36,661 nt of DNA, taken from Stentor roeselii (Eukaryota; Ciliophora; Heterotrichea; Heterotrichida; Stentoridae). Made by a program: the position numbers and the translations under genes. Each line of letters starts with the position of its first letter. Position 1 is the first letter of the stretch. The stretch covers positions 1 through 36,661 of the forward strand of contig RSEH01000358.1 in assembly GCA_006503475.1 (NCBI GenBank). The letters run 5' to 3'. Under the pieces are notes generated by a model. It did not search any database. It was not told the DNA's origin and saw only the letters and a list, made by a program, of their open reading frames with translations. Shown here piece after piece: positions 13,189 through 36,661 of the stretch.

Positions 13189-13767
13189 TTATTAAAGATT
13201 TCAGAAAAATAGGTCTTTTGGCATATTTTGAAATTTTTCTGGAAAAATTTTGAAGAAGTGAAAGTTTTTGAGTTTTTTAGGTTTGAGATTGGTTTTTTTT
13301 ATTTTTTTAATTAGGGGATGTTTTAGAATTGGGAATCATGAGATAGTGATTATTTATTAAATACATGATGATTGAGAGATAAATCGATAATTTTTTATGA
13401 GTTTTAGATTCAGATATTGATATGTAATAATAACTTAATCTGTAGAATAAACCTGATGATATAAGTATATGGAATAATAGTGCTTATATAGGAAAATATT
13501 ATATGAATCAAGTAAAAAGAAAAAAATTTTGAAAATAAATATAAACATTGATTATACATTTTTTATATGAACTATTTGACTATGAATAACATTACATATG
13601 AAATCAAGCAAAAACTCTGAAAATTAAAACAAAAACTTGATTTACCAATTCAAATATTCACAAAATTACCAAAAATCCTCTTCAAACCAATCTCCCTCTA
13701 CTAATCCTCCAATCCAAAAAAATACATAAATCTAAAACTCAACTCTTCAATAAAATCCTAACCTTAC
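13189..13767. other. Intergenic region between kelch genes 1 and 2
   Basis: This holds the 5' flank of gene 1 and the 3' flank of gene 2. Bases 13241-13336 have no C on the plus strand (no G on the coding strand of gene 1), while about 13640-13767 has no G. The middle is plain AT-rich DNA. No gene, repeat or RNA is recognisable. Confidence 0.6.
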
Positions 13768-16700
13768 CTAAACATAATCAACTTCAAGACACGTCACATT
13801 AGCAGGATAAACCGACTTATCAAAATGCGTCTCAAAAAACTTTCCAAATTCAGCATCTAATTTTCTAGCCCGATATAAACATTTCTTCGTATTTTTTCTA
13901 ACATCCTGTTTTTTCTCCAATTTATCAGTATAAACCTCAACAATTCCCATAAAAGCCGCAAAACTTCCCATAATTCCAAAAATCGATCCAAGCATTCCTC
14001 CAAAATAATTCAAAAAAGACTGTTTTTCAAGTCTAGTGATTTCCATTGCAGTATCACTTTTAAAAATCACGACTTTCAAGAATAAGTAAATTTTTGTATA
14101 AAGACTGAATAAAAATCACTCTTCCTGACTGCAAAGTCCTCCTAAAGTAGGTTCTTGACTTGTTAAAATATGGAAACCTGTGAATTTTTCTGTGGTTTGA
14201 CTGGAGTCGAGGGTGAAAACCTTTGTAAAGAATACTGAAGGGATAAACTTGAGGTAAAAGACTGTTGGAATCACGCCTCGAAAGGCAAGATCTTGAGAAC
14301 TGGTTTCAATTGAAATGATTTCTGTGCTCAGTTCTTCAGGGATTGAAGAATGTGAAGTCACTGACAAGGTAAAAGCAGTGGCTGAGCTTTTCCTTTCTTT
14401 CATTTGGACTAAAATATTACCCTGACTGGAAGAAAGGGTAACTTTATGATATTTTACTAAAACTTCACAGTTATTCTTTACTTTACGTCGAGTAACTTCT
14501 TTTTTCTTAAAAAAAATATTTTTTTCTTCTATTAAATCACTGCCATTTGAATGAATTTCTTCACATTTATCACCATACATGTAAAAAGTAAAATTAAAAA
14601 CAATTTGCTCTGAAATCACTTCTTCATCAAGTGCAATAAGTGGCACCAAAGCCCTGATTTCATAAACATTGCTATACCCAAAAGCAAAAGAACTCGCAAT
14701 AACCGTAAAAATACCCGTCAAATAAAAAGCAGCAGAAAAAATTCCACCCACAAAATTTTTCCTAAGAATAACAGGAACCCCTAATTCTTGTTTATGTCTA
14801 GAAATGAAAATATCCCATTTTTTCACTATTTTTCGAAACCTTTTAAAGCAAAACAAAAGTATTAAAATAACAACTCCTGATGAAATCAGGACATTCATAA
14901 AAATATTTAAAATTTCTTGATATTCTTTTGATTTTTTTTTGAATTTTGAAGGCTGAACTGATTGATTAGGTGTTAATTCGTAAGTTGAATTAAGAACTGT
15001 ACTTCCTAAAGGGCAGAAGGCGGAAGAAGGACAGATCTTGCAAATAGCTGCTCCTTGGCCATCAGAGTAACTTCCAGAAGAACAGGGCAAGCATTGAATG
15101 TCGGAGGTCAAAGCGGTTTTATTGCTGAAGGTCCCCTGGGGACAAGGCTCGCAGTTTTTGTTAAAGAAAAAAGTTCCTTTTGGGCATGGAAAACATTCAG
15201 AGCCTGTTGTTCCTTTACTGCAAGGAAGGTCAAGCCAATTAGAATCATTAAAAGAAAGCTTGTAAAATTTGTTACTTGTTTCAACGTAAGACCGAAGATA
15301 ATCCGCTGAACTTGTCCCTCCAAAGATAAATATTGAGTTTTTATAATGAACTGCTGAGTGACCGTATAAATTTATCGATTTTTCTATTTCTTTTTCTGAT
15401 TCAAAATCATAAATTTTTGAAGATTTTTTTGATAAATCGTAAAGTATCAAAGGGTTCATCATTATATAGTCAAATATAAATCCTCCAATTATTAAAAGTT
15501 TTTCGTCAAAGTGAATCACGGATGATTTTGCTTTTATTTTTATGTCTAATGAAAATTTTGAGATATTTGTTATTTTTGAATCATTTAGAGTTAGATTGTA
15601 AAGTAAATCATTTGGAGTTGATTTGAAGGACTGACCTCCTAAAATTATGAGAAAGGTTGAAGTGTTTTTAGAGATCACTAAAGCATGGCAGTTATGAATG
15701 TCATTATCGAAAAATGAGGATTTTTTATTCATTTTAAATTGAGTGTAACTACTTGTTTCATAGGAAAATTGCCAAATTTCATTAAAACCTTTTGCTTTGT
15801 TTTTTCCTCCGATTATGTATAATGTGTAGTCGTGGTATGCTAGACATGAACTGCTTCTTGGTGAAGGGATTTCTCCTTCGACTTCATGTAAGAACCATTT
15901 GTTTAGAGGTTCATAGTAAAAAAAAGCGTCGTTGTAAAATGTGTCTCCGTAGCTTCCACCGAAGAAAACTAGGATGTTTGATTCGATTAGAAGACAAGGA
16001 GAGTTTGACCTGGGTGAAGGTATATGACCAGAGAAAGTAATCGCCTCCCAATTTTTATCTTCAAAATTAAATTTCCACATATCATTGAAAAATATCATAT
16101 CTCTATTCAGATACAAAACCGACCCTCCATACATATACATATTATCATTAATAACTGCACTACAATGATAATTCCTAGCAGGAGGGCTTAAAAAGTTATA
16201 AGAAACAGTTGATAAACTTAAATTTCTATCTTGTACATGAAACAAAATAATATCATTTCTAAACTCCTCAATAGTCCTTCCATACATCAAATAAATCTTA
16301 TCATCAACAATAATTCCTTGTGAGTTATACCTTTTCTCATCTTCATAATCTCCAAGTTTCTGCCAAGTCCCATCATTGAACCCAAATCGAAAAACATCAG
16401 AAAGTATCTTCCCATCTAAATTTAACCCAAAAAGCACAAACATATCATCTTCATACACAAAAGCATGATGATCTAATCTTGGACTAGGAACTTCTCCTTT
16501 GACTTGAACTATTTTCCAAGTGTTACTTTTTAAATCGAAACTATAAAGTTCTGATGTTTTATTCTTTGAGTTCTCGTCAAGACCGAAGAGGTAAAGACAG
16601 TCTTTGTAATAAACAAGTGAAGATGCTGCTCTTTTTAAAGGAATTTTCCCTTTTTGAGGAAGTTTTGTGTTTATCATTGTTTCAAGGTCGATTCTGAGTA

Positions 16701-17193
16701 AGTCTTACAAATAAAGAGAATTTTTCATTTCGTTTATACCTAGTCCTCCAAATATTGCTACTTTTTCTTTGCCTTCACTTTTGAATTGAATCGAACCGAA
16801 TTCGAGAAGAAAAGGAAAAGGCTCTCCTGAAAGTCTCTCTTGTTGCCATTCGTTGTTTTCCAGGTTAAATGAATAACACCCTGACATTGAACCCAAACTT
16901 AAGATTTTTCGGTCTTTTCTTAGAAATATTTGATGACCTGCTACTTTTCCGAAGTCGAAATTGGAAGTGGGGTAGATTATTGAGAATTTATTGCTGGTTA
17001 GGTTGAAGGAGACTATAGAGGCGTATAATAGAGATGAAGTTGAATCCCAACCTCCTATGGTAATTATTTGATTACCGATTTCGTCGTATGCTGTCGCTGA
17101 TTGTATTGTTACACTAGGTGGTGCAAAGGTATTAGGAATCGAACTCAAGGTAAGCGCCAAAATATTCTCTAATAAGAGCATTAACAACAGCAT
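13768..17193 (-). CDS. Kelch / Cys-rich / multi-helix surface protein, gene 2
   Basis: Spliced length 1,131 residues, the same as gene 1, with the same order of parts. The signal peptide is MLLLMLLLENILAL. Exon 1 ends in NSLYL and joins LIDLETMI. The propeller keeps strands such as IFIFGGTS and LYIIGGKN. The Cys-rich block contains CPKGTFFFNKNCEPC and CPQGTFSNKTAL. The first helix includes VLISSGVVILILLFCF and is followed by a basic loop with FRKIVKKWDIF. The second helix is GGIFSAAFYLTGIFTVI, the outer domain opens EIRALVPLIALDEEV, and the last membrane segment includes GGMLGSIFGIMGSF. The stop is TAG. An in-frame TAA directly precedes the ATG. Its upstream DNA is not a normal spacer but a decayed fifth kelch copy (17215-17975). 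Sequence and intron ends group it with gene 1, separate from genes 3 and 4. Confidence 0.88.
14105..14119 (-). other. 15-nt intron 2 of kelch gene 2 (phase 2)
   Basis: GTGATTTTTATTCAG, with A at position 10. Retention puts a TGA straight after GAG. Splicing gives SQEEDLYTKIYLF, aligned with the other copies. Confidence 0.9.
16694..16708 (-). other. 15-nt intron 1 of kelch gene 2 (phase 2)
   Basis: GTAAGACTTACTCAG, with A at position 10. Retention gives an immediate TAA. It differs from intron 1 of gene 1 only near its middle. Confidence 0.92.
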
Positions 17194-17214
17194 TTATAAA
17201 TAAAGTAACTAGTC

Positions 17215-17975
17215 CTGATATAAATTTCAAATTTAAATATTTAATGATATCTATTTTACCAATTCTGAGTATCTGCTTAGGTAAAAGCAAAGTCAAGGAA
17301 TATGCAACGAAAGATGTTATCACGAAGTTGATTTATGAGATAACTCCAAATAAATAAAACTAAAAATTCAATAAACTTAACTCTATGTCTAAGCAGAGGA
17401 AGGGCTTATCATGAACTTGACACTTCCCAAGCATGAGAATCTAACTCGAACTTGAACAGTTGATAATCATAAAATTCTTGGTCCCATCATATCCTAGAAC
17501 TAAATCAACTCATTCTAAACCAAACTAATAAGACCTTTTACCAGGACTCTCTCCGTTTTGATTAGCTTTTTGACATTGACAAGGTAATCCAAGTTAAACC
17601 TACAGGAAAATGTCTTATTATATAATAAAAGTTCAAACCTGTAAAAACTACAGGAAATGTCTTTTATATAATAAAAGTTCAATCCTTTAATATAAAGAAA
17701 ATATTTAAATTCCTTTCGAAAGCTCGAAAATCATAAAAGTTGAGCTTCTCAAGAGACTTCAATTTTTAATTCGTTGAATTAATCTTAAAGTAGCATCCTG
17801 TCTGAAGCCCTCTGGAAAATTTTCGTGGCTTTTCTGAGGAAAGTTTGTGGCCTGAAGCGATAATTGCACTTTATATTTGAAAATCTAGATATCAGGTTGA
17901 AGTATTACAGGATTTATTGATTATCATTGAACTATCAAAGACACTGATTGTTATGAATTTATTTCGGTTGAGTCT
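17215..17975 (-). pseudogene. Decayed fifth kelch-family copy (5' part)
   Basis: The plus-strand DNA runs colinear with gene 3 from about 21240 to 21990. On the minus strand, exon 1 remnants include ASGHKLSSEKPRKIF (gene 3: ASGHQIFLRKDRKIF) and ELKIEV. The intron-1 region keeps a CTGTAG junction followed by FNLDYLVN (gene 3: FDLDDLVN). Exon 2 remnants include QNGESPGKRS and GYDG, and then DIIKYLNLKF. Many stops and indels are present, so it cannot be translated. Only the first third of the gene is visible, and homology ends just before the ATG of gene 2. The repeat pair at 17602-17690 lies inside the relic. Confidence 0.8.
17602..17690. repeat. Two-copy direct repeat, period about 48 bp
   Basis: Two imperfect copies start at ACAGGAAA (17602 and 17650) and share a central TATATAATAAAAGTTCAA. 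They lie inside the decayed kelch copy, near where intron 1 would be. Confidence 0.75.
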
Positions 17976-17980
17976 TACAA

Positions 17981-18100
17981 TGATGAAATGTGAATAAAAC
18001 TCACTGAATGTGATGAAATGTGAATAAAACTCACTGAAGGTGATGAAATGTGGATCAGACTCTCTGAAGGTGATGAATGTTGAATGGATTTCGTAGAGAG
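17981..18100. repeat. Four-copy tandem repeat, 30-bp period
   Basis: Units start at 17981, 18011, 18041 and 18071 with TGATGAAATGTG, and the first three continue into ACTCACTGAA-like ends. Units 1 and 2 are nearly identical and the last is diverged. No open frame or spacer diversity is associated with it. Confidence 0.85.
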
Positions 18101-18110
18101 TCTGAAAGAA

Positions 18111-18320
18111 TAGGGTTAATAATAGAATTTATTTAGAATATGGTTAAGTGGCTTATATTAGAATTTGAAGAAGATAGGGTTAATAATAGAATTTATTTAG
18201 AATATGGTTAAATGTCTTACAGTAGAATTTGAAGAAGATAGTTGGTTAATAAAAGAATTTATTTAGAATATGGTTAAATGGCTTACAGTAGAATTTGAAG
18301 AAGATAGTTAAAGAAATTAG
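18111..18320. repeat. Three-copy tandem repeat, 64-bp period
   Basis: Units start at 18111, 18175 and 18239 and share GAATTTATTTAGAATATGGT and GAATTTGAAGAAGATAG. A truncated fourth start lies at about 18305. It lies between kelch genes 2 and 3, directly after the 30-bp array. Confidence 0.85.
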
Positions 18321-18775
18321 AATGAAATATCGATTAAGGAATAGGATAAATAATTTAGTTAATAGATGTAAATTTTATGCTGTGCTACAACAGTGTTATA
18401 TTTAGCCTAAAACAATATTTGGATAAATTTAAGCTTTATAAATTTCTCATTTTCAGCTATTATATTTTTCTAGACTTATCAGTAGTTCTACCTAAAAAGT
18501 CATCTTATTCAAAGTTATGACTACTTATTCACAATTTAACTTATTCAAGTGTAAATTTTCAAAATTGTGCCAATCAAGTTAAATTTATTGACATCCAAAT
18601 CATTAGGAAATAAAAATAATTGAATCTGTCTTTTTAATACTATAACATAAATAATAATTCAGGTCTAAGTTCATCATTTATGAAGTTTATGATATTATTA
18701 AAATTTTTAAGATTAATTCAATCCGATTAAAGGAACTTGGGTTAATTCCTCATCAATTACTAAAAATTATTAAAA
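18321..18775. other. AT-rich 3' flank of kelch gene 3
   Basis: Plain AT-rich DNA between the 64-bp repeat and the stop of gene 3. No gene, RNA or repeat can be supported. Confidence 0.6.
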
Positions 18776-21700
18776 CTAAAGCATATCAGTACTTGACGGC
18801 TGCTTCAAATCTTTAATTTTGAAAACATCAACTGGAAATACCTTGGCTGTTGATAAACTAACTTGTAATCTACCAAATTCAAATCCTAACTTTCTAGACT
18901 GATTTAAACATTTCGTAACAATTCTCCGTTTTTTCCTGAATTTTAAGTATCGATCTACAAATCCTTCAGAAAGTCCTAAAATTGCTTCAAAAGTTCCCAT
19001 TAAGCCAAAAATCGAGCCCATTAATGCTCCAATAAAATTAAAAAATGTTTGTTTTTCTATTCTTTTGGTTTCCATTGCAGTATCACTTTCAAATATAACT
19101 ACTTTGAAGAATAAATAAATCTGAGAATAAAGTCTGCATGAATCTTACAGCTTTTGAGGAAACTGACCTCCTTGCACTGGCTCTTGATCAGAAAAAACAT
19201 GAAAGCCAGTTGAAGTTTTGGTCTCACTGCTAGTTTCAAGTTTGAAAACCTTTATAAATTTTACAGAAGGAATAAATTTAAAGTAAAATTCAGAAGGATT
19301 AACTCCTCTAAAAGCAACAAACTTGTTAGCAGTACTAATAGAAGTACTTATACTACTAACTTGCCCAGGTATCGACGAGTTTGAAGTAACCGAGCAAGTT
19401 AAAGCACTAGCAAAGCTTTGTCTTTCTCTCATCTGTACAAAAACAACTGCTTTTTTTTTATTAATTTTAAATTTTCTATACTTTAAACTGACAAAACAAT
19501 TTCCATCAACCAAAAAGCTATCCTGTTCCCTTTGACTATACTCAAACCCATCTTCAACAACAACCAAAAAATTATCAAAGCTTTCATTATGAACACATTT
19601 ATCTCCATACATATACATCGTAAAGTTAAAAATCATCTGTTCAGAAACAACATCTTCATCCAAAGTAATCAAAGGCACCAAAGCTCTAAATTCCTCCAAA
19701 TTATCAAATCCCATCACCAGACAACTATTCACAAAAGTAACTAAAGCGACCAAGTAAAAACCAAGTGAAAAAACTCCTCCAGTGATAGTTTTCTTATAAA
19801 TCACAGGAACTTCTAGATCTTGTTCATGACCATCAACGAACAAGTCAATCTTTTTTAAAACCCTTCTAAATTTCGAGAAAGAAAAAAAAATCATAAATGA
19901 AAGAATTCCTATTCCAAGTACTAAATACCAAAGAACTTTTAGTACTTTGTTAATAGTTTCAATATTTTTTTTATATTGAGAAGGTTGAGAAGTTTGATTT
20001 GCAGTTATCTTGTATTTTGACTTGAGACTAGAACTTCCTAGAGGACATTCAGAGTAACTTGGGCATTCTTTACAAGAAACAGTTCCTGTTGTATCTGAGT
20101 ATTCGCCGTAGTTGCATGGAAGGCACTGTCTCATACTTATAAGAGAAATTTTTTCACTAAAGGTGCCTTTTGGGCAAGGATCACATTTTCCATTGTTGTA
20201 AAAAGTCCCTGCCTTGCAAGGAAGACAATTTTCTCCTGATGTTCCTGGACTGCAAGGTAATGATATCGGATCTGAAGGTTCAAATGAAAGTTTTAACAGG
20301 TTGTTAGAAGTAATGAAAGAACTTAAATAGTCAGTTGAACTTGTCCCTCCAAATATAAAAATCGAATTTTTATAATGAATTGATGAATGACCTTGCAATG
20401 AAAGTGAATCGATTTTTGAGTCGAATTCAAGAATTGTTGTTGAAAGAGTAGACAAGTCAAGGAGTATTAAAGGATTTGATACAATTGAATCGTAGATAAA
20501 TCCTCCTATGATAAGGATTTTGTTTTCAAAAGATATGATGGAGGACTTGGATTTTATGGGTTCTTTCAGAAGATTGGAATGAATTTCAAGGATTTCTTGG
20601 TTATTAACAGTGAGGTTGTAAATGTACATATTTGGATGAGAATCAAAAGATTTACCACCTGTTACTATTATTGATATCACCTGACTATCAGCACTTTCCT
20701 CAACCCAAGAATGACAATCATGAAGATCTTTCTTAAAAATCTCATTTTTTGCAGTAAGTTGATAATAAATATTACTTTCATAAGTATAAACCCAAATTTC
20801 ATTAAACCCCTTGTCATAGTTTTTCCCTCCAATGATGTAAAGTTTGACATTAAAGTAACTTAAACAACTACTGCTTCTCGGCGACAAGTTTTCACCTTCA
20901 GGTGATAAATTAATCCACATAGAAAGCGGTTCATAGTAAAAGTACAAATCATTTAAATAGCTCAGTCCTTCATTCCCTCCAAAGACAGTAATTGAGTTAC
21001 TTTCAACAAGTGTACAAGCGAAATTTGACCGAATACTTGGTGCTTTGCCGGAAGTGGTGACAGTTGTCCAGGTTTGTGTTTCCAGATCAAATCTCCAAAA
21101 ATCATTGAAACTAGTGACTTCACTATTCAAGGAATACTTTTCCCCTCCATAGACGTACATGTATTGGTTTATCACTTGGCTGCAATGAAATCGTCTTTCT
21201 GAAGGACTCTTGTAATTATAAGTGACTTGGTTGAAAGTCACGTTGTTTTCCTTGATTTCGAACTTCAAAATATTATTAAAGATCTCGGTAGTCCCTCGTC
21301 CATTTAATAAAAAGACCTGGTTTTCAATTAAAACACTTTGCATGCTGAATCTTCCTAAATCTGGAAATGATCCAAGTTTAGACCAAGTCGAGTCAAGGAA
21401 GTTAAATCGAAAGACATCATCTCGAAGTTCATTTTTAACAGTGACTCCAAAAAAGACATACATGAAGTTTCTATATACATGAGCTCTGTGGCTTATTCGA
21501 GATGAAGGCGTCTCTCCAGAAGTCCTAATGACTTCCCAGGTCTCCGAGTTTAAATCAAATTTAAACAACCGAGAGTCAAACTCATTAATCCCATCATATC
21601 CAAATAAATAAATTGAATCATTGTAAAAGACAAGACTTGCTGAAATCCTATTTCCAGGCCTTTCTCCCTTTTGACTAATCTCCAAATTCACCAAGTCATC

Positions 21701-22210
21701 CAAATCAAACCTTCTTAAAAATTACAAAAACAAGTCAGTCCTCATCTGAAACAAGTCCCTTCCTCCATAAACAACAACAAATTCTTTTCCATTTCTTTCA
21801 AACTGAACACCTGCGAAATCAAGAAGTTGAGGAAAAGAAATTCCTAAAAATTCTTCAATTTTCCATTCTTTGCTTTGAAGGTTGAAAGAATAACACCCTG
21901 CCATGAAGCCGAAAATGAAGATTTTTCGGTCTTTTCTTAAAAAGATCTGATGACCTGAAGCGACTCCGTAGTCAAACTTGGACACTGGAAAGATCTTTGA
22001 AAAGGTTTGGCTTGTTAGGTTGAATGAAATGATCTGGTCGATTGATTGAGAGTTTGATGGGTCGAATCCTCCGATTGTTATGATTTGGTTGCTGAATGAG
22101 TCGTATATTGATGATGAACGCACAACACTTATTGAAGGTGGATGGAACGATGGGATTGATGATATTGATAGAGACAGGGATTTGAATAGATATGAGAATA
22201 GGAGAAGCAT
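18776..22210 (-). CDS. Kelch / Cys-rich / multi-helix surface protein, gene 3
   Basis: Spliced length 1,134 residues. It has a signal peptide (MLLLFSYLFKSLSLSI), a kelch propeller (IYLFGYDG, MYVYGGEK, LYIIGGKN, IFIFGGTSS) and Cys-rich repeats (CKAGTFYNNGKCDPC, CPKGTFSEKISL, CNYGEYSDTTG). The first helix includes LVLGIGILSFMIFFSF and is followed by a basic loop (FRRVLKKIDLFVDGHE). The second helix is GGVFSLGFYLVALVTFV. A second outer domain opens EFRALVPLITLDEDV with the conserved MYMYGDKC. The last membrane segment includes GALMGSIFGLMGTFEAI, with a basic tail containing FRKKRR. The stop is TAG. Exon joins differ slightly from genes 1 and 2 (LFLFDLDD instead of LYLIDLD), placing it with gene 4. 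The relic at 17215-17975 resembles this copy. Ligands and role are unknown. Confidence 0.88.
19134..19148 (-). other. 15-nt intron 2 of kelch gene 3 (phase 2)
   Basis: GTAAGATTCATGCAG, with A at position 10. Retention gives an immediate TAA. Splicing gives QKLLYSQIYLFF, in register with the other copies. Confidence 0.9.
21711..21725 (-). other. 15-nt intron 1 of kelch gene 3 (phase 2)
   Basis: GTAATTTTTAAGAAG, with A at position 10. Retention gives an immediate TAA. Splicing gives LFLFDLDDLVN. Confidence 0.9.
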
Positions 22211-22736
22211 TTTTTTTTTAGAAGATTTTAGAAGGGTTGAAGAGGATTTTAGCAGGAATAGAGATGGCTTGATTTTATTGAGGGTTTGGAGGGGTTTGGG
22301 AGGTGAAGTATTGAAAAATTAATATTTGATGAAACATCGTCATTGAAGACTATCAGCACGTATTCTAAAATTCATTCATTGAATTTCCTTAAAAAGCCAA
22401 CTATTTAATACTAAAATATAAACGATTAAATGATATAATGATTTATCCTAAAATAATAATTTAAAATACTTTAGTCAAAATCACCTAAATTCAATTTCAA
22501 TTCAATCATCTTCAAATCCAAGTGCTCACTCTAAAAATAAAAATAATAATCTCATATTTAACCTTTAAACCTAAATAAAAATTTCAATTCAATCCTAATC
22601 CCCAAGATTTCAAATCAAAATAAAGATTAATAATCTAACCTTTAAAAACAATCTCAAATATTTTATCAAATCCCTCAAATTAATATAAATCAATTTTCAC
22701 CTTACATCAAATAAAAACTCTCTAAACCCCTAAAAC
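22211..22736. other. Intergenic region between kelch genes 3 and 4
   Basis: Bases 22211-22320, the 5' flank of gene 3, hold only about two C on the plus strand. Bases from about 22440 to 22736, the 3' flank of gene 4, are very poor in G. The switch lies near 22330-22430. I see no gene or repeat. Confidence 0.6.
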
Positions 22737-25700
22737 CTAAACACTAGAAACAACTAAAATCTTCCAATTGGTATCCAAAGGAAAAACCTTTCCAATCTTA
22801 TAATCATCTTTAAAATTTCCAAATTCAGACTCCATCTTTCTCGACCTACTAAGACATCTCCTCGCATTTTCCTTTTCAACCGAGCATTTCGAATACCGAT
22901 CAACAAACCCTTCAACAACACTCATTCCAGCTCCAAAAGTTCCCATCAATCCAAAAATCGATCCCATTAAAGCTCCAAAAAAAGTAAAAATTGTTTGTTT
23001 TTCAAGTCTTTTTATTTCCATAGCAGTTTCACTTTCAACGATAACAACTTTTACATAAACATGAATCTGTGAAAACAAACTGATTTTTTCTTACAATTCT
23101 TTTGTTTGAAGTCCTCCTAAGACAGGTTCTTGATTTTTAAGGACATGAAAACCTGTTGAGCTTATTGACTGAGAAATTGTTTCTTGAGTGAAGACCTGAG
23201 TAAAATTTACAGAAGGCACAAATTTAAAGTAAAATTCAGAAGGAGTCACTCCTCGGAAAGTTAAAAGTTTTGAACTTGGAGTAATTGATGTCCTGGCACT
23301 GCTGATTTCTTCGGGTATGGAAGAAGAAGATGATATTGTGCAAGTCAAGGCACTTGCATAACTGAGAGTTTCTTTCATTTGAAGTAAAATTTCAGATTTT
23401 TTGGATGTTAGTTTGAAGTCTTTGTAGGTGAAAGTTACTTGGCAGTTTTGGTCAAGTAACTCAGTTGACATGCTTCGAGATGAATAATCGAAACCTTCTT
23501 CTAGTAAGAATATCATGTTTTCGATGTTTGTGGAATTCTTGCATTGATCACCGTATATGTGTAATGTGAAGTTTAGTTTTAGAGAGTCGGAGATTATGGT
23601 TTTGTCTAGGGTGATTGAAGGGACCATAGCTCTAAGTTCATAAATGTTATCAAACCCTTGAACAAGACAAGCAATCACAATAGTAACAACAGCAACCATG
23701 TAAAATACAAGACTAAACAACCCTCCAGTGATTGTTTTTCTATAAACAACAGGAACTTCCAATTTTTGATCATGGCTATTAATATACAAATCAAATTTCT
23801 TCAAATATTCCCTAAATCTCGTAAACCCACAAATCGAAACAATAAAAAGACTCACAAAAATAATCACCAAAATCCAAAGTATTTCCATCACTGTATCTAT
23901 CAAAAATGTATTACTTTCAAATTGACCTGGTTGATGAGTTTCATTCGCTGGAATCTTGAAAGATGAATCAATTCTCGAACTTCCAGTCAAACACTCTGAG
24001 CTTGTCGGGCACTGTTTGCATTGAGACTGCCCTTCAATATCACTATAATACCCATAACCACAAGGAATGCATTGTCTATTATTCTGAAGTGCTTTTTTAT
24101 TACTAAAAGTTCCTTTTCTACATTTAACACAATTCCCTTCAGAGTAAAAAGTCCCTTCTTGACAAGCTTTGCATTCTTTTCCATGAGTTCCAGGACTGCA
24201 AGGTAAAGAAATTTTATCAGTTGATGTGAAAGTAAGATTCAATAAATTATTATTTGTTCTATAAAAAGATCTGATAAAGTCAGTAGAACCAGATCCTCCG
24301 AATATAAAAATTGAATTTTTATAATAAACTGCAGAATGTCCATAAATATTCAACATTGACTTACTCTGTATTTCGTCTTCTGACTCAAATTCAATCACTT
24401 CAGAGGTTAAAGTTGACAAGTCAATTAAAATCAAAGGGTCGACAACCACGTAGTCTATACTGAAACCTCCAATCACCAGGATCTTGTCTTGAAAACGAGT
24501 GATTGTTGACTTTGCCTTTCCGATAAGAGGCATTTTAATTGAAGTTACGTTGGTTATTTGATTTGAGTCTTTTATTGTTATATTGTAAAAGTTTTGGTTT
24601 GGAAAGGAATAAAAATTTTGACCTCCTAAGACTATCAGGCTGATGTCATTTGATAGATTGTCGATGTATGTGTTGCAATCGTGAATGTCTTGATCGAATA
24701 TAGAAGGATTCTTTTTTAGTTGATGGTATTCGTTTAATTCATAGGAATATTTCCAGATTTCATTGAATCCTTCAATGCTGTTTTTACCTCCGATTATGTA
24801 AAATTTTAATAGGTGGTAAACCATGCAACTGTTGCTTCTGGGAGTTGGAAGGGCTCCATTTGCTTGGATTACTATCCAGGTTTCAAGTGGTTCATAAAAA
24901 AAGTAAAGATCATTCAAATAGTTCTTCTCATTTTTACCTCCGAATATTGCTATTGAATAACTTATAACAGATGTAGATGCGAAATTAGTTCTAACAGAAG
25001 GGGGGTCTCCATTAGTCGTCACTTCTTGCCAAACAGCTTTTTCCAGGTCAAATTTCCACATATCACTAAAAGTAGTCAACACCCCATCATAATTATAAAT
25101 TTCTCCCCCAAAAACATACATAAACTGATTCATCAAATAACCACAGTGATAACGTCTTTCAGAAGGTACCTTAAAGTCATAAGTCACTCTTGTCAACGAA
25201 ACATTATTCCCTAAAATCTCGAATTCAATGATATCATTAAAAAGATTAGTTAAATGCCTTCCATATAAAATATAAATCTTATTCTGAATCAAAACACTTT
25301 GAATATTATATCTTCCAACCTCCGGAAAATTTCCAAGTTTTTCCCATTTATTATCCAAAAAACTGAACCGAAAAACATCATCATAAACCTGACCCTGCAA
25401 AGAAACCCCAAAGAAAATAAATAAAAAATCCCCAAAAACATGTGCTTTATGAGTATATCTAGATCCAGGTGCTTCTCCAGAAGTAATCAAAATTTCCCAG
25501 GTATTTGTATTTAAATCGAATTTAAACAAATCATTTCTGTTTTTTTTATAAGTATCATCATCTCCAAACAAATAAAGAGAATCATTATAAAAAGAAAGGG
25601 AAAGACTAGCTCTTTTTTTCGGAGAATTTCCGAATTGTTGAATTTTTTCATTAGTAAATGTATCCAAATCAAACCTTTATAAACCTTACAAAAATAAATC

Positions 25701-26174
25701 AGAACTTATTTGATCAAAGTAAATCCCTCCATAAACAGCGACGTAATTTTTTCCATTTTTTTCAAATCGAGCTGCCCCGAAATCAGTGACAAGAGGAAAA
25801 GGTTCTCCAGAAACTTCTTCAATTTTCCATTCTCGACTATGAAGATTGAATGAGTAACACCCTGCGTTGTATCCTAAACTAATGATTTTTCTGTCTTTTC
25901 TTAAAAAGATCTCGTGACCTGAGACTACTCCGAAGTCGAACTTGGAGACTGGAGTGATTTTTGAGAACTTTTTACTTGTGAGGTTAAAAGAAACGATCAG
26001 GTTAAGAGATTTTGTGTTTGTTGAGTCGAATCCACCGATTGTTATGATTTGACTGCCTTCCGGATCGTAGATCGCTGATGAACGAACTTGACTTGACGGG
26101 GGGGACAGGAAGGTGGGAATTGGAGTTGTGATGAAAGATGATGAAGTTGCTAGTATTGAGACTAGGAAGAGCAT
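22737..26174 (-). CDS. Kelch / Cys-rich / multi-helix surface protein, gene 4
   Basis: Spliced length 1,135 residues, the first gene of the array in transcriptional order. It has a signal peptide (MLFLVSILATSSSF) and a propeller with ITIGGFDS, MYVFGGEI, FYIIGGKN and IFIFGGSGS. The Cys-rich repeats include CQEGTFYSEGNCVKC and CGYGYYSDIEG. The first helix is ILWILVIIFVSLFIVSI, followed by a loop with FREYLKKFDLYINS, and the second is GGLFSLVFYMVAVVTIV. The second outer domain opens ELRAMVPSITLDKTI, and the last membrane segment includes GALMGSIFGLMGTFGAG. The stop is TAG. The exon-1 join (LFLFDLDT) groups it with gene 3. Its upstream flank is free of C for over 200 nt on the plus strand and carries the 109-bp tandem repeat at 26223-26640, which the other copies lack; that repeat could contain its promoter. 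Confidence 0.88.
23080..23094 (-). other. 15-nt intron 2 of kelch gene 4 (phase 2)
   Basis: GTAAGAAAAAATCAG, with A at position 10. Retention gives an immediate TAA. Splicing gives TKEFLFSQIHVYV, in register with the other copies. Confidence 0.9.
25675..25689 (-). other. 15-nt intron 1 of kelch gene 4 (phase 2)
   Basis: GTAAGGTTTATAAAG, with A at position 10. Retention gives an immediate TAA. Splicing gives SDLFLFDLDTFT. Confidence 0.9.
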
Positions 26175-26222
26175 TATTTATAGAAGAGGAGAAATTATTG
26201 TTTTTATTTGAGATTTTTTTAG

Positions 26223-26640
26223 TTGAGAATGGAAAAATTAGGATTATGGAAGAAAGAATATTTGGATTAGGATTTTTATTAGGTTTTTTATGGTTTTTAG
26301 TGAAATTGTTTTGATTTAAGATTTTGTTTTGTTGAGAATGGAAAAATTAGGATTATGGAAGAATGATTATTAGGATTAAGGATTTTTAGAAGGCTTTTTA
26401 TGGTTTTCGGTGAAATTTTTTTGATTAAGATTTTGTTTACTTGAGAATGGAAAACTTAGGATTATGGAAGAATGACTATTAGGATTAAGGATTTTTATAA
26501 GGTTTTTGGTGTGTTTTTTTATTTCATTTCATTTAGTTGAGAATGGAAAACTTAAGATTATGGAAGAAAATTATTAGGATTTAGGATTTTTATAAGGTTT
26601 TTATTGTTTTTGGTGGAAATGTTATGATTTTATCTGGAAT
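26223..26640. repeat. Four-copy tandem repeat upstream of kelch gene 4
   Basis: Units start at TTGAGAATGGAAAA at 26223, 26332, 26441 and 26537, giving spacings of 109, 109 and 96 bp. Each continues with a TTAGGATTATGGAAGAA-like core, and most have GGATTTTTA and a GGTTTTT-type end. On the plus strand the array is rich in G and T with almost no C. It begins 49 bp upstream of the ATG of gene 4, so it lies in that gene's leader or promoter. Confidence 0.85.
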
Positions 26641-29221: not shown

Positions 29222-29839
29222 CTAAAAGATTGCACAGTCCATACATCCTGTTTTAGAAGACGAGGTCGATCTCACATCCTTTGACATACCTCCAGGTGTT
29301 TCCAATTTAGCTCTCATTTGTTGAATCGCCAGTTCTTTCCCCCTAATCTTCCCATCTTCATCTTTAATTTCCAACTCAAGTTTCTCCAACTCTTCCAATC
29401 CAATCCTTTCCTCATCCCTCATAATTTTTTTCAACCCTTCAATATCCTGCCTAACCTTAATATTTTTTTCCTCTTCTTTCTTCTTTTCCTCAATCTGGAG
29501 TTTGAGTTTAACCTGGACAAACTCTTCACTAACCTTCAAAACACTATCCTTCGTATAAGCCAAGTAACAAACCGCACAAGCCCGTTCAGTCTTCTGACTT
29601 TCCGGGTGTTCAACTTGCAAAAAGCAGCACTTTTCACAAAAAGCATGATAACAAAAGTGACAATAATACTTCTTATTATCATGTTTATCAAAAGTCGACA
29701 CACATCCCTTACATTGTTTCATCGCCAAGTAAAAATCACGATCAACACCTTCAGGAATTCCTTTAACAACAGGTTCTACAAGAAAAGTGGTAACATTTTG
29801 ATAGAACTCTTTAACAAGTAGAAATTCAACACTTTCCAT
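29222..29839 (-). CDS. FYVE-like zinc finger, coiled coil, CaaX protein
   Basis: 205 residues. Four CxxC pairs at C43/C46, C60/C63, C68/C71 and C88/C91 have the spacing of a FYVE-type double zinc site, with CHFCYHAFCEKC at its centre. The basic R(R/K)HHCR motif that binds phosphatidylinositol-3-phosphate in classical FYVE domains is replaced by KKYYCHFC, so lipid specificity is doubtful. Residues ~105-180 form a Glu/Lys-rich coiled coil. The protein ends CAIF, a CaaX box of the kind usually geranylgeranylated, with another Cys three residues before it. A peripheral membrane adaptor is a fair inference. Its ATG shares a base with the stop of the upstream gene (TAATG). Re-reading one base there would fuse both frames as D-N-L-M. 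I chose MESVEF as start because it is the first Met and precedes a well-formed helix. Confidence 0.75.
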   Translation of the reverse strand: MESVEFLLVKEFYQNVTTFLVEPVVKGIPEGVDRDFYLAMKQCKGCVSTFDKHDNKKYYCHFCYHAFCEKCCFLQVEHPESQKTERACAVCYLAYTKDSVLKVSEEFVQVKLKLQIEEKKKEEEKNIKVRQDIEGLKKIMRDEERIGLEELEKLELEIKDEDGKIRGKELAIQQMRAKLETPGGMSKDVRSTSSSKTGCMDCAIF

Positions 29840-31391: not shown

Positions 31392-34300
31392 ATGGGTGCA
31401 TGCGGAGGAAAAGAAGACAGCTCAACCCCTGTCGACGCGTCAGTCACAGTGGGAGTTCCAGATTTTCATTACCTTTCACGAGACAAGGGTCGAATTCTGT
31501 TCGTCTCGAATAAAGGAGTCAAAAAAGTTGACCTTCACTCGAAACTGAGTATCGCCCAAGATAGTTCAGTCCTTTGGCTGAGTAGTAAAAAGTTTTTTGT
31601 TGTTGGAGGAAGTTCAAATTCGGATTTTCTGACGAAAGCTTTTTATGTTGACCCACAAACGAAACAAATTCAAGAAGTGAAGCCAGCACCTGTGGCTGTC
31701 CTTGGAGGAAATTTACATGAATATAATTCGTTTGTTTATCATGTTGCTGGACTTATGAAAGGACCTTCTGGGATTGAACCTTCTCCGGTTATGAGATATG
31801 AACCTGCGAAGGACCTGTGGACTATCATTCAGGAAAAGTTCACCAATGATGAGGACTTGGTCAGGAGGCTCAATGAAGAAAATAAAAGCGAGGCGAGCAG
31901 TGTCCAGTCTAAAAGAGATTTCAAGCTAAAAAAACTCATTCATGCTGGCACTTGTCTTATGGGAGATCGCATTTATTTTGTGGGAGGCCAGCGCAAGTCA
32001 GGTCGAGGAGAACTCAGGAATAGTCAGTATGTCTACTCGCTGGATTTGGCATCACCTGGATTTCCGTTAAGAATGGAACCTGTGAAAATGAAGTTCAAAG
32101 TGATCAACCCGCTTATTGCATCAAGTAAGAACTCTGCTATTCTTGCAGGTGGAAAGCATCCGCCTACTGGAGAATACAGCAAACTCGTTTTTGAATTGAA
32201 TCTCGGGCCGGAAGGTCCTAAATTCCAACAAATCGACTCTTTAAAGTTCAACTTAGAAGAGCACTATCCTGCTTTAGCAACACCCAACCATGGAATTTTC
32301 ATATCATTCCCCCATGTTGCAGTACGAAAGTTCGGGGATAACAAATGGGTCAATCTCAGCATTCAACATAAACCTGCAGGCGTTCCTCACGCAGGTCATC
32401 ATTCAGCTCCAGGAAAGCACAAAAAGAAGTCCAAGTCTAGTTCTTCTTCTTCATCTTCAAAAAAGAAGAAAAAAAATATTCATACCCCGAAATTTGGAGA
32501 CAAGCCTCATGTTGAGACAACTGGAAAGAAAAAATCGAAAAGTAGCTCAAGTTCAAGTAAGAAGAAAAAAATTGAAATTCGACCACCTGGAGTTGGAATT
32601 AAAATTAAGGGATCTAGTAGTTCTTCCAGTGGAAAAAAGAAAAAGATTGCTGTTGATGCCAAGGCCCCTAAAATTTTACTTAAGAAAAAAGGATCCAGCT
32701 CAAGCTCTGGAAAAAAGAAAAAAATCGAAATTAAACCTCCAGGATTAAATATTGCTTTAAAGAAAAAGTCCGGAAGCTCATCATCAAGTTCATCAAATAA
32801 AAAAAAGAAATTCGGAGTAAAACTCCCAGATCTTAATATCGGAAAAAAGAAAAAATCCAGCAGCTCAAGTAAAAAGAAGAAAATTGCGACTCCTAACGTT
32901 GATCTTAAGAAACCAGACATAAAAGGGCCTTCAGTGAATTTAGAAATTAAGAAAAAATCAAGCTCATCTTCAAGTAGCTCAAGCAAAAAGAAAAAAATTG
33001 GAGTGAATTTCGGAAAGCCTCCTGCAATTGGAGCAGGGGTAAAGAAAAAGTCATCTGGAAGTTCATCATCAAGCAGTTCGAGTAAAAAGAAAAAAATTGC
33101 AATGAAGCCTCCTAATGTCGATCCAAAGAAAATAGACATAAAAGGTCCTAATGTGAATATCGGAATAAAGAAAAAATCTAAAAGCTCATCTTCCAGTAGC
33201 TCCAGCAAAAAGAAAAAACTTGGTCTTAAACCAGTTGGTGTCAACATCGGGAAGGCTAATGCTGAAATCAAAAAGCCAGATCCAAAGATTCCTTCAATTG
33301 GCGTTGGAGTAAAGAAAAAGTCTTCAAGTAGTTCATCATCCTCAAGCAGCTCAAATAAAAAGAAGAAAATGGGTGTAAAAATTCCTAATGCTAATTTACA
33401 GAAGCCAGATATTAAAACTCCAGCTGTTAATATGGGAATCAAGAAAAAATCAAGTAGCTCATCTTCTTCAAGTAAAAAGAAAAAAATTGGAGTGAATATC
33501 GGAAAGCCTAACGTTGACATTAAGAAACCAGCACAGCCTCCTTCTATAGGCTTCGGATTAAAGAAAAAATCAAGTTCTTCATCCAGTTCAAGTAAAAAGA
33601 AGAAAATAGCCGTAAAACCTCCAAATGTTAATCTATCAAAACCAGATATCAAAATTCCTCCAGTCGGTGTGGCAGTTAAGAAAAAATCGAGCAGTTCATC
33701 TTCTAGTAGTTCAAGCAAAAAGAAAAAAATTGGAGTGAATATCGGAAAGCCTACCGTTGATATCAAGAAACCAGCGCAGCCTCCTTCTATAGGCTTCGGA
33801 ATAAAGAAAAAGTCTTCAAGTAGTTCATCATCCTCAAGCAGTTCTAATAAAAAGAAGAAAATAGGAGTAAAACCTCCTACTGTTGAAGTAAAAAAACCAG
33901 TTATCCCAGCTCCTTCTGTAAATTTCGGAATAAAGAAAAAATCGAGCAGCTCATCTTCCAGTAGTTCAAGCAAAAAGAAGAAAATAGCCATAAAACCTCC
34001 AACTGTTGATTTAAAAAAACCGCAAATTCCAGCTCCTTCTGTAAATTTCGGAATCAAGAAAAAATCAAGCAGCTCTTCTTCTAGTAGTTCAAGCAAGAAG
34101 AAAAAAATAGGAGTGAATATCGGAAAGCCTAACGTTGAGATCAAGAAACCAGCACAGCCTCCTTCCATAGGCCTGGGATTAAAGAAAAAGTCAAGCTCGT
34201 CTTCCAGTTCAAGTAAAAAGAAGAAAATAGGCATAAAACCTCCTACTGTAGCTGTAAAAAAACCCGAAGTTACAGTTCCTCCAGCTAGTGTGGCAATTAA

Positions 34301-36661
34301 GAAAAAATCGAGCAGTTCATCATCAAGTAGTTCAAGCAAAAAGAAAAAATTCGGTGTAAATATAGGAAAGCCTAATGTTGAGATCAAGAAACCAGCGCAG
34401 CCTCCTTCCATAGGCCTGGGATTGAAGAAAAAGTCAAGTTCGTCTTCCAGTTCGAGTAAAAAGAAAAAAATAGGCGTAAAACCTCCTACAGTTGAAGTAA
34501 AAAAACCAGTAATCCCAGCTCCTTCTGTTAATATCGGAATCAAGAAAAAATCAAGCAGCTCATCTTCCAGTAGCTCAAGCAAAAAGAAGAAAATAGGCGT
34601 AAAACCTCCGACTGTTGAAGTAAAAAAACCAGTAATCCCAGCTCCTTCTGTAAATTTCGGAATCAAGAAAAAATCGAGCAGCTCATCTTCCAGTAGTTCA
34701 AGCAAAAAGAAGAAAATAGCCATAAAACCTCCAACTGTTGAAGTAAAAAAACCAGTAATTCCAGCTTCTTCTGTAAATGCCGGAATCAAGAAAAAATCGA
34801 GCAGTTCATCTTCTAGTAGTTCAAGCAAAAAGAAAAAAATTGGAGTGAATATTGGAAAGCCTGCCGTAGACATTAAGAAACCAGCACAGCCTGCTTCCAT
34901 AGGCCTCGGATTGAAGAAAAAGTCAAGCTCATCATCAAGTTCAAGTAAAAAGAAAAAAATAGCTATAAAACCTCCTAATGTCAATCTAACAAAACCAGAT
35001 ATCAAAATTCCTCCAGCAAGTGTGGTAGTCAAGAAAAAATCGAGCAGTTCATCATCAAGTAGTTCAAGCAAAAAGAAGAAAATTGGAGTGAATATCGGAA
35101 AGCCTACTGCTGAAATCAAGAAACCCGCACAGCCTCCTTCCATAGGCCTGGGATTAAAGAAAAAGTCAAGTTCGTCATCCAGTTCAAGTAAAAAGAAGAA
35201 AATTCAGGTAAAACCTCCTAATCTTGATTTTAAGAAACCAGAAATTAAACCTCCTTCAGTCAATTTCGGAATCAAGAAAAAATCGAGCAGTTCATCTTCA
35301 AGTAGTTCAAGCAAAAAGAAAAAAATCGGTATAAATATCGGAAAGCCTACTGCTGAAATCAAGAAACCAGCACAGCCTCCTTCCATTGGCCTGGGATTAA
35401 AGAAAAAGTCAAGTTCGTCTTCCAGTTCGAGTAAAAATAAGAAAATAGGAGTAAAACCTCCTACTGTTGAAGTAAAAAAACCGCAAATTCCAGCTCCTTC
35501 CGTCAATTTCGGAATCAAGAAAAAATCGAGCAGTTCATCATCTAGTAGTTCAAGTAAAAAGAAAAAAATTGGTGTGAACATCGCGAAGCCTACTATTGAC
35601 ATCAAGAAGCAAGATGTTAAGCCTCCTACTGTTGAAGTAAAAAAACCAGTAATTCCGGCCCCTTCAGTTAATGCAGGAATCAAGAAAAAATCAAGCAGCT
35701 CTTCTTCCAATAGTTCAAGCAAAAAGAAGAAAATAGGCGTGAAACCTCCTACTGTTGAAGTTAAAAAACCACAAATTACACCTCCTTCTGTAAATTTCGG
35801 AATCAAGAAAAAATCAAGCAGCTCATCTTCCAGTAGCTCAAGCAAAAAGAAGAAAATAGGCGTAAAACCTCCTACTGTTGAAGTTAAAAAACCACAAATT
35901 ACACCTCCTTCTGTAAATTTCGGAATCAAGAAAAAATCAAGCAGCTCATCTTCCAGTAGTTCAAGCAAAAAGAAGAAAATAGGCGTGAAACCTCCTACTG
36001 TTGAAGTAAAAAAACCACAAATTACACCTCCTTCTGTAAATTTCGGAATCAAGAAAAAATCAAGCAGCTCATCTTCCAGTAGTTCAAGCAAAAAGAAAAA
36101 AATAGGCGTAAAACCTCCTACTGTTGAAGTAAAAAAACCAGTTATCCCAGCTCCTTCTGTAAATTTCGGTATCAACAAAAAATCGAGCAGCTCATCTTCC
36201 AGTAGTTCAAGCAAAAAGAAAAAAATAGGCATAAAACCTCTTACTGTTGATCTAAAAAAACCAGTAATTCCAGCTCCTTCTGTAAATGCCGGAATCAAGA
36301 AAAAATCAAGCAGCTCTTCTTCCAGTAGCTCAAGCAAAAAGAAAAAAATAGGCGTAAAACCTCCTACTGTTGAAGTTAAAAAACCAGTAATTCCAGCTCC
36401 TACAGTAAATGTCGGAATCAAGAAAAAATCGAAAAGCTCATCTTCTAGTAGCTCAAGCAATAAGAAAAAAATAGGTATAAATATCGGTAAGCCTAATGTT
36501 GAGATCAAGAAACCAGCACAGCCTCCTACCATAGGACTAGGATTAAAGAAAAAGTCAAGTTCGTCATCTAGCTCAAGTAAAAAAAAGAAAATAGCCATAA
36601 AACCTCCTACAGTTGAAGTTAAAAAACCGCAAATTACACCACCTCCTATTGTAAATGCCGG
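31392..36661 (+). CDS. Giant kelch-like, Ser/Lys-repeat protein (partial, 5' end)
   Basis: The frame is open from ATG 31392 to the window end, at least 1,756 residues with no stop. MGACGGK fits the N-myristoylation consensus, and Cys4 could be palmitoylated, so membrane anchoring is likely. Residues ~15-340 look like a kelch-type propeller with spaced double-Gly strands (FFVVGGSS, IYFVGGQR, AILAGGKH). From ~345 on there are about 36 modules: KKK, 5-11 Ser, KKKK, then a spacer such as IGVKPPTVEVKKP or IGVNIGKPNVEIKKP. Early modules are irregular; later ones settle near 41 residues and alternate between spacer types. The spacers, with Pro and alternating Val/Ile, recall AHNAK repeats. The Ser runs could be heavily phosphorylated, making a charge-alternating tail. 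A cortical or membrane scaffold is inferred. The long antisense frames are repeat shadows. Confidence 0.88.
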   Translation, partial: MGACGGKEDSSTPVDASVTVGVPDFHYLSRDKGRILFVSNKGVKKVDLHSKLSIAQDSSVLWLSSKKFFVVGGSSNSDFLTKAFYVDPQTKQIQEVKPAPVAVLGGNLHEYNSFVYHVAGLMKGPSGIEPSPVMRYEPAKDLWTIIQEKFTNDEDLVRRLNEENKSEASSVQSKRDFKLKKLIHAGTCLMGDRIYFVGGQRKSGRGELRNSQYVYSLDLASPGFPLRMEPVKMKFKVINPLIASSKNSAILAGGKHPPTGEYSKLVFELNLGPEGPKFQQIDSLKFNLEEHYPALATPNHGIFISFPHVAVRKFGDNKWVNLSIQHKPAGVPHAGHHSAPGKHKKKSKSSSSSSSSKKKKKNIHTPKFGDKPHVETTGKKKSKSSSSSSKKKKIEIRPPGVGIKIKGSSSSSSGKKKKIAVDAKAPKILLKKKGSSSSSGKKKKIEIKPPGLNIALKKKSGSSSSSSSNKKKKFGVKLPDLNIGKKKKSSSSSKKKKIATPNVDLKKPDIKGPSVNLEIKKKSSSSSSSSSKKKKIGVNFGKPPAIGAGVKKKSSGSSSSSSSSKKKKIAMKPPNVDPKKIDIKGPNVNIGIKKKSKSSSSSSSSKKKKLGLKPVGVNIGKANAEIKKPDPKIPSIGVGVKKKSSSSSSSSSSSNKKKKMGVKIPNANLQKPDIKTPAVNMGIKKKSSSSSSSSKKKKIGVNIGKPNVDIKKPAQPPSIGFGLKKKSSSSSSSSKKKKIAVKPPNVNLSKPDIKIPPVGVAVKKKSSSSSSSSSSKKKKIGVNIGKPTVDIKKPAQPPSIGFGIKKKSSSSSSSSSSSNKKKKIGVKPPTVEVKKPVIPAPSVNFGIKKKSSSSSSSSSSKKKKIAIKPPTVDLKKPQIPAPSVNFGIKKKSSSSSSSSSSKKKKIGVNIGKPNVEIKKPAQPPSIGLGLKKKSSSSSSSSKKKKIGIKPPTVAVKKPEVTVPPASVAIKKKSSSSSSSSSSKKKKFGVNIGKPNVEIKKPAQPPSIGLGLKKKSSSSSSSSKKKKIGVKPPTVEVKKPVIPAPSVNIGIKKKSSSSSSSSSSKKKKIGVKPPTVEVKKPVIPAPSVNFGIKKKSSSSSSSSSSKKKKIAIKPPTVEVKKPVIPASSVNAGIKKKSSSSSSSSSSKKKKIGVNIGKPAVDIKKPAQPASIGLGLKKKSSSSSSSSKKKKIAIKPPNVNLTKPDIKIPPASVVVKKKSSSSSSSSSSKKKKIGVNIGKPTAEIKKPAQPPSIGLGLKKKSSSSSSSSKKKKIQVKPPNLDFKKPEIKPPSVNFGIKKKSSSSSSSSSSKKKKIGINIGKPTAEIKKPAQPPSIGLGLKKKSSSSSSSSKNKKIGVKPPTVEVKKPQIPAPSVNFGIKKKSSSSSSSSSSKKKKIGVNIAKPTIDIKKQDVKPPTVEVKKPVIPAPSVNAGIKKKSSSSSSNSSSKKKKIGVKPPTVEVKKPQITPPSVNFGIKKKSSSSSSSSSSKKKKIGVKPPTVEVKKPQITPPSVNFGIKKKSSSSSSSSSSKKKKIGVKPPTVEVKKPQITPPSVNFGIKKKSSSSSSSSSSKKKKIGVKPPTVEVKKPVIPAPSVNFGINKKSSSSSSSSSSKKKKIGIKPLTVDLKKPVIPAPSVNAGIKKKSSSSSSSSSSKKKKIGVKPPTVEVKKPVIPAPTVNVGIKKKSKSSSSSSSSNKKKIGINIGKPNVEIKKPAQPPTIGLGLKKKSSSSSSSSKKKKIAIKPPTVEVKKPQITPPPIVNA
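32420..36661 (+). repeat. Coding tandem repeat, about 123-bp (41-residue) period
   Basis: Modules starting at AATCAAGAAAAAATC lie at 35801, 35924, 36047 and, slightly altered, 36170: exact 123-bp steps. Further left, unit length varies and two unit types alternate, one with PPTVEVKKP and one with GKPNVEIKKPAQPPS. The left end has short, diverged modules with Gly or Asn at the edges of the Ser runs. The array continues beyond the window. Confidence 0.9.

Follow-up and report, generated by a model that had tools for sequence, protein, structure and literature searches.

Here we describe a giant gene at the end of a 36,661-base stretch of Stentor roeselii DNA, which makes up the whole of contig RSEH01000358.1 (henceforth the window, or C297) and which we compared with the rest of the genome by own-genome searches over 44.4 Mb in 522 contigs. 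The open reading frame (ORF) of this gene (31392..36659, + strand) begins with MGACGGKED and runs for 1,756 codons without a stop until the contig end cuts it, and it is most likely carried on in another contig, C209. The predicted protein consists of an acylation-type start, a propeller head and a tail of alternating Lys and Ser blocks, an anatomy that we consider hardly open to doubt. Frames in the family to which it belongs (see below) end in TAA, TAG or TGA, and we infer the standard genetic code and a Stentor-like heterotrich. No Rfam family was matched in the window.

The head (residues 21-326; 31452..32369, + strand) was identified as a six-bladed kelch propeller by Pfam, a PDB profile search, a structural model and a fold search, which gives a definite fold to what an earlier note, made from the letters of this DNA alone, had called a kelch-like propeller. 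Specifically, Pfam run on the head alone returned Kelch_1 at 25 bits (cut-off 20.1) and Kelch_3 at 22.7 bits (cut-off 22), and a scan of all 1,756 residues gave no kelch model above its cut-off. Both the model and the fold search returned a propeller fold; single-sequence folding of the head reached a predicted local distance difference test (pLDDT) score of only 33.6. Within the propeller lies an insert of low confidence (residues 149-176; 31836..31919, + strand; pLDDT under 50), the length of which differs among paralogues. The fold search found the head to resemble the kelch propellers of KLHL3, KLHL2, KLHL20, Keap1 and KBTBD10 at 13-16% identity. Such a match to the kelch fold fixes no role for the head, and it is not a match to a known protein with a different role, the outcome that the earlier note had named as telling against its proposal. 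Unlike these kelch proteins, the window protein has a Met-Gly start, a giant Lys/Ser tail and no named neighbouring domain that we could find; in particular, Pfam detected no BTB domain in it (up to E = 1) or in the complete paralogue on contig C106 (C106a; up to E = 0.1).

The tail (32418..36659, + strand) contains exactly 36 runs of at least five Ser, as against the roughly 36 modules of poly-Ser between Lys clusters that had been claimed for it, the first run starting at 32436 and the last module at 36555. These runs are 5-11 residues long and hold 312 Ser in total, with lengths of 10 (15 runs) and 8 (12 runs) being the commonest and a median spacing of 41 amino acids (aa). The 1,414 residues of the tail are 25% Ser, 25% Lys, 10% Pro, 3.5% Ala and 3% Asp+Glu, with a net charge of +316 and no Cys, Trp or Tyr, and Pfam, run on the window protein, assigned no part of the tail to a named family. 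Nearly all Ser runs (97%) are flanked on each side by two or more Lys within five residues; in 200 shuffles of the same tail this figure averaged 27% and never rose above 44%. All six Ser codons are in use, and the order of TCN and AGY codons is identical in 15 of the 15 ten-Ser runs, from which it follows that modules were copied whole.

We then asked at what level the modules are constrained by comparing nonsynonymous (pN) and synonymous (pS) variation in 21 of the 36 modules. In the 42-aa class (n = 6; overall pN 0.039, pS 0.326), pN was 0 for both Ser and Lys columns, at pS values of 0.32 and 0.20, respectively; in the 39-aa class (n = 6), Ser columns had a pN of 0 and a pS of 0.433, and Lys columns a pN of 0.081. 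The 41-aa class (n = 9), for which the comparison was ungapped with at least one module out of register, gave a pN/pS of 0.78 for all columns taken together, with 0.55 in Ser, 0.39 in Lys and 1.15 in spacer columns. Taken by column, these values indicate that the Ser and Lys blocks are under protein-level selection in the + frame while the spacers are freer, and that the module tail is protein-coding; that in-register Ser columns vary only silently argues for the same frame. Two long ORFs on the opposite strand, of 878 aa (32507..35143, - strand) and 464 aa (35204..36598, - strand), were rejected as genes and are by-products of the array, because the in-register modules differ from one another mainly, or exclusively, at third codon positions of the + frame.

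The 3' end of the gene most likely lies on C209, judging by a 64-base overlap between the last bases of the window (36598..36661, + strand) and the start of that contig, which has one mismatch and keeps the frame. C209 and C297 have 69 31-mers in common; the other five giants that we compared share none with C209. When joined at the overlap, the protein comprises 2,477 residues with 46 Ser runs and ends at a TAA on C209, i.e., about 720 residues and ten runs are added; because the units resemble one another, further units may be missing between the two contigs. Two further contig ends (L010, C316:1-9900; L036, C496:2800-10166) pair in a similar way: they overlap inside an array, with 5 mismatches in 105 bases, and the protein so joined would pass 5,000 residues (3,169 + 2,175 less the overlap). 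In all, six contigs (C297, C316, C349, C172, C209 and C496) stop inside arrays; as arrays end contigs, annotations have probably either cut giant-tail genes short or overlooked them.

Beyond the contig end, the tail is very probably followed by a C-terminal domain. Using the last 118 residues of C106a as a query, we found six places, namely the query itself, C209 (53%), C496 (47%), C19, C53 and a broken copy on C36, with the frames on C209 and C496 reaching their contig ends. The domain spans about 115 residues and is preceded by SSDVSD and acidic residues in five of the five proteins looked at. Comparisons of profiles, which were shallow, linked it to the ends of the C391, C132 and C67 members (94% probability) and of the C318 and C6 members (84%), and these links make it probable that the domain goes back far in the history of the family. 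It had no match among PDB sequences up to E = 1. Two Pfam families matched one member each (E 0.014 and 0.017), which we took as chance. The domain is absent from the complete C135 protein, which terminates in a Ser run.

The window gene had been put forward as the window's best candidate for an undescribed system; its layout proved real, and the gene does not stand alone: a search of the genome with the head gave 33 places, which we merged by hand into 29 kelch-head loci, six of them with giant or contig-cut Lys/Ser tails. A query with P0002 added weak places on C193, C88, C495 and C1, outside the 29 loci. The six loci and their numbers of Ser runs of at least five residues are C297 (36), C106a (74), C316 (82), C349 (23), C135 (26) and C172 (8); C106a (3,204 aa) and C135 (2,001 aa) are complete, and C316, C349 and C172 are cut by contig ends. 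Lys flanking exceeded the shuffled mean in C106a (96% vs. 28%), C316 (89% vs. 36%), C135 (88% vs. 13%), C172 (75% vs. 18%) and C349 (57% vs. 17%). In C349 (locus L012, at a contig start) the first Met reads MVEA and a Gly follows a later Met. A 26-residue match of the C106a repeats to GTP_CH_N (25.9 bits, cut-off 25) was taken as chance. Short-tailed and tail-less relatives also occur among the family loci. At two of the loci, C502a and C106b, a cholesterol-oxidase-like flavin adenine dinucleotide (FAD) enzyme replaces the tail behind a Met-Gly kelch head (L021:732-3728, - strand, and L022:353-3358, + strand; Chol_subst-bind E 5.6e-90 and 1.2e-91, with FAD_binding_4). Outside the genome, a search with the head sequence alone brought up no homologue at E <= 0.001, either in the size class of 190-600 aa or in that of about 970-3,070 aa, and an 18-row head profile searched against proteins of about 190-600 aa found two strong homologues in Blepharisma stoltei, both of which begin with MGxC. 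Two further profile matches (P0004 and P0005) were set aside as weak, generic kelch proteins.

To place the giant tails within the family, we used a tree of 23 heads, comprising 21 of the 29 loci and two Blepharisma rows (C53, C106c, C150b, C502b, C36, C374, C52 and C45 were left off). The tree has two state changes for giant tails, and two are forced by well-supported branches, since C135 stands apart from the group of C297, C106a, C316, C349 and C172; none of 500 shuffles gave a count as low as two. Two gains are the simplest count, and one gain with several losses is possible. These findings bear on whether tail length has any role at all, given that unequal exchange could have lengthened a disordered linker in a neutral or near-neutral way, with only the head and the C-terminal domain on either side of it being of use. 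Modules copied whole and alike within an array, spacers of the 41-aa class with a pN/pS of 1.15 and the existence of short-tailed and tail-less relatives are what such growth would leave behind, but it does not predict a Ser-column pN of 0 in two module classes, Lys flanking above both the shuffle mean and the shuffle maximum in eight of the eight tails or tail pieces examined, or two separate tail origins (with the caveat of one gain and losses); we hold it to be distinctly unlikely. At the other extreme, heterotrichs may have arrived at least twice, behind an acylated kelch head, at a membrane-held polyelectrolyte brush tunable by phosphorylation, about 2,000 to over 5,000 residues long and in several cases capped by the C-terminal domain, in which conservation lies in the succession of Lys cluster, Ser run and Lys cluster, a block grammar, rather than in the sequence. 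We put this forward tentatively and would sooner doubt it than assert it.

The start of the protein (MGACGGKED; 31392..31418, + strand) is of the Met-Gly-x-Cys acylation type and fits the PS00008 pattern. Gly follows the first in-frame Met at 26 of the 29 family loci, compared with 0 of 35 control ORFs of at least 150 aa from the window and the loci (not all of which are necessarily genes), and residues 3-5 hold a Cys at 16 of the 29. Met-Gly is also present in C502a, C106b and C132, i.e., in members without Lys-rich tails. The genome has a single N-myristoyltransferase place (8.9e-67). We also counted 138 places of the DHHC palmitoyltransferase family, some of which may be exons, making the genes possibly fewer. 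The acylated N-terminus of the earlier note thus holds as an acylation-type start shared across the family, and the myristate itself is a prediction, N-myristoylation of the head being what we infer from these starts. An adhesive, secreted or biomineral protein was discounted, as the start shows no hydrophobic signal segment by eye (no signal-peptide program was used).

Several known systems resemble parts of this protein. Nopp140 (NOLC1) and treacle (TCOF1) have Ser blocks repeated between Lys-rich spacers, and this alternation is what the window tail has in common with them. They differ in their acidic, CK2-primed Ser stretches, whereas the window protein has 3% Asp+Glu, an acylation-type start and a kelch head; by the Nopp140/treacle standard, acidic CK2-type Ser clusters were not found in the window tail, where acidic CK2-type sites are nearly absent. 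It follows from the scarcity of Asp and Glu that the alternating negative and positive blocks envisaged in the earlier note would arise only if the Ser runs were phosphorylated, and then not at acidic CK2 sites. One way to use such a pattern would be a phosphorylated polyampholyte scaffold, in which heavily phosphorylated poly-Ser blocks pair with the Lys blocks of neighbours to form a condensate or an elastic layer, as in Nopp140/treacle or polyserine, instead of switching on and off a membrane. The Lys/Ser block pattern of the tail, the assembly of polyserine in cells (PMC12773705) and the CK2-type SSDVSD with acidic residues before the C-terminal domain in all five proteins are consistent with it. 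On the other hand, pyrophosphorylation and CK2 sites of NOLC1/TCOF1 lie within acidic Ser stretches (PMC11427299), to which a tail with 3% Asp+Glu does not correspond, and the conserved acylation-type start points to membranes, so we regard a scaffold of this kind as rather unlikely. A nuclear or nucleolar scaffold, with Lys clusters serving as nuclear-localisation signals and a tail that binds nucleic acid in a Nopp140-like way, would account for the dozens of KKKK clusters. It sits badly with Met-Gly at 26 of the 29 loci, including the three members without Lys-rich tails, and with a C-terminal domain without a Nopp140-type family (the Nopp140/SRP40 C-terminal family was absent from a Pfam scan of five C-terminal domains, C209 included), which makes it highly improbable.

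We also considered whether the tail could be a polyphosphate or phosphoinositide sponge, with Lys clusters that bind polyphosphate like those of PASK-motif proteins. Under the PASK rule given in PMC12345225 (at least 75% D/E/S/K over 20 residues, one Lys among them), the tail has 274 matching windows in 33 islands covering 64% of it; the head has none, and eight other ORFs from the window have 3 between them. However, this likeness is one of composition: in the same paper, changes to the acidic residues of the motif are reported to have abolished binding and serines not to be needed, whereas here Asp or Glu occurs in only 14 of the 274 windows and the conserved columns are those of Ser. A sponge is thus very unlikely.

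The spacers of the tail, such as KKPDIKGPSVNLEIKKK, look similar to the Pro/Val/Lys spacers of AHNAK. AHNAK itself is not known to have Ser runs of this kind or a kelch head. The AHNAK-like segments that had been proposed stand as a resemblance only, nothing in the tail having been assigned to a family by Pfam.

The closest functional analogy is with MARCKS, which combines a myristoyl group with a basic, Ser-containing domain and leaves the membrane on phosphorylation (PMC4602126). The likeness covers an acylation-type N-terminus, basic Ser-containing sequence in a disordered chain and the idea of a switch. MARCKS differs in having one basic effector domain and no kelch head, compared with 36 or more basic-Ser blocks and a C-terminal domain here, and the window tail has just 3.5% Ala; Pfam, run on the window protein up to E = 1, returned no MARCKS family, and we offer the likeness as an analogy. 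A folded head that carries an acylation signal, a polycationic tail in which the Ser blocks are conserved and a further folded part at the far end together suggest a membrane-anchored tether or brush. We thus propose, with a probability of roughly 0.4, a membrane-anchored kelch protein the tail of which is a giant, charge-switchable tether. N-myristoylation, with palmitoylation where a Cys follows, would hold the N-terminus at the cytosolic face of a membrane, while the kelch face would bind a partner. As long as it is unphosphorylated, the tail, a polycation with a net charge of +316 over 1,414 residues, would lie along acidic phospholipid, until kinases modified the Ser runs and neutralised or reversed their charge, such that the tail was released or compacted; the C-terminal domain would anchor its other end. 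The whole would amount to a row of dozens of MARCKS-like electrostatic switches with a propeller at its head.

A number of observations weigh against this proposal. Met-Gly is missing at three loci (C349 and C172, both MVEA, and C150b, MNFA), and the strict PS00008 pattern fits only 18 of the 29. Only one of five AlphaFold models of the head was good (68.8; the other four 46.0-51.5), the link between C297 and C209 is a one-mismatch, 64-base overlap that lies within a repeat array, and both Blepharisma stoltei homologues, at 496 and 576 aa, are short and have no giant tail. Finally, the giant, Ser-rich tail of C349 contains 19% Asp+Glu and has a net charge of only +40, with Lys on both sides of just 57% of its runs, and a membrane switch leaves this nearly charge-balanced tail unexplained.

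The earlier note knew of no described family with this layout, and we likewise found none described in the titles and opening lines of abstracts of open-access literature, be it on kelch proteins in Stentor and Blepharisma or on combinations of kelch, heterotrich, ciliate and myristoyl. The kelch head is of a known kind; the family-wide acylation-type start, giant Lys/Ser tails and unnamed C-terminal domain are, as far as could be seen, new. If the membrane-tether reading is true, natural block polyelectrolytes of graded length, all behind the same membrane-targeting head, come from a single gene family, in which the short-tailed paralogues, the charge-balanced C349 and the oxidase-for-tail C502a and C106b serve as built-in controls. 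It could then be asked directly whether selection acts on block charge patterning alone, and what such patterning does at a membrane in a large single cell.

Elsewhere in the window, four genes stand in tandem at 9763-26174 (- strand); they encode kelch repeats, hydrophobic segments and an ephrin-receptor-like stretch rich in Cys (with Pfam applied to one of the four). Each of these genes contains one candidate 15-base intron (12689-12703, 16694-16708, 21711-21725 and 25675-25689); removal of those at 12689-12703 and 21711-21725 keeps the frame open, as judged by eye. Of the 8,806 introns annotated in Stentor coeruleus, 8,173 (92.81%) have a length of 15 bases (PMC9505925). Adjoining the kelch/Cys-rich array is a four-copy tandem repeat with a unit of about 109 bases (26197-26630). 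Between this repeat and the giant gene lies a FYVE-like zinc-finger protein (29222-29839, - strand; 26.1 bits, just below the cut-off of 27.8), the C-terminal CAIF of which we take to be a possible prenylation box.
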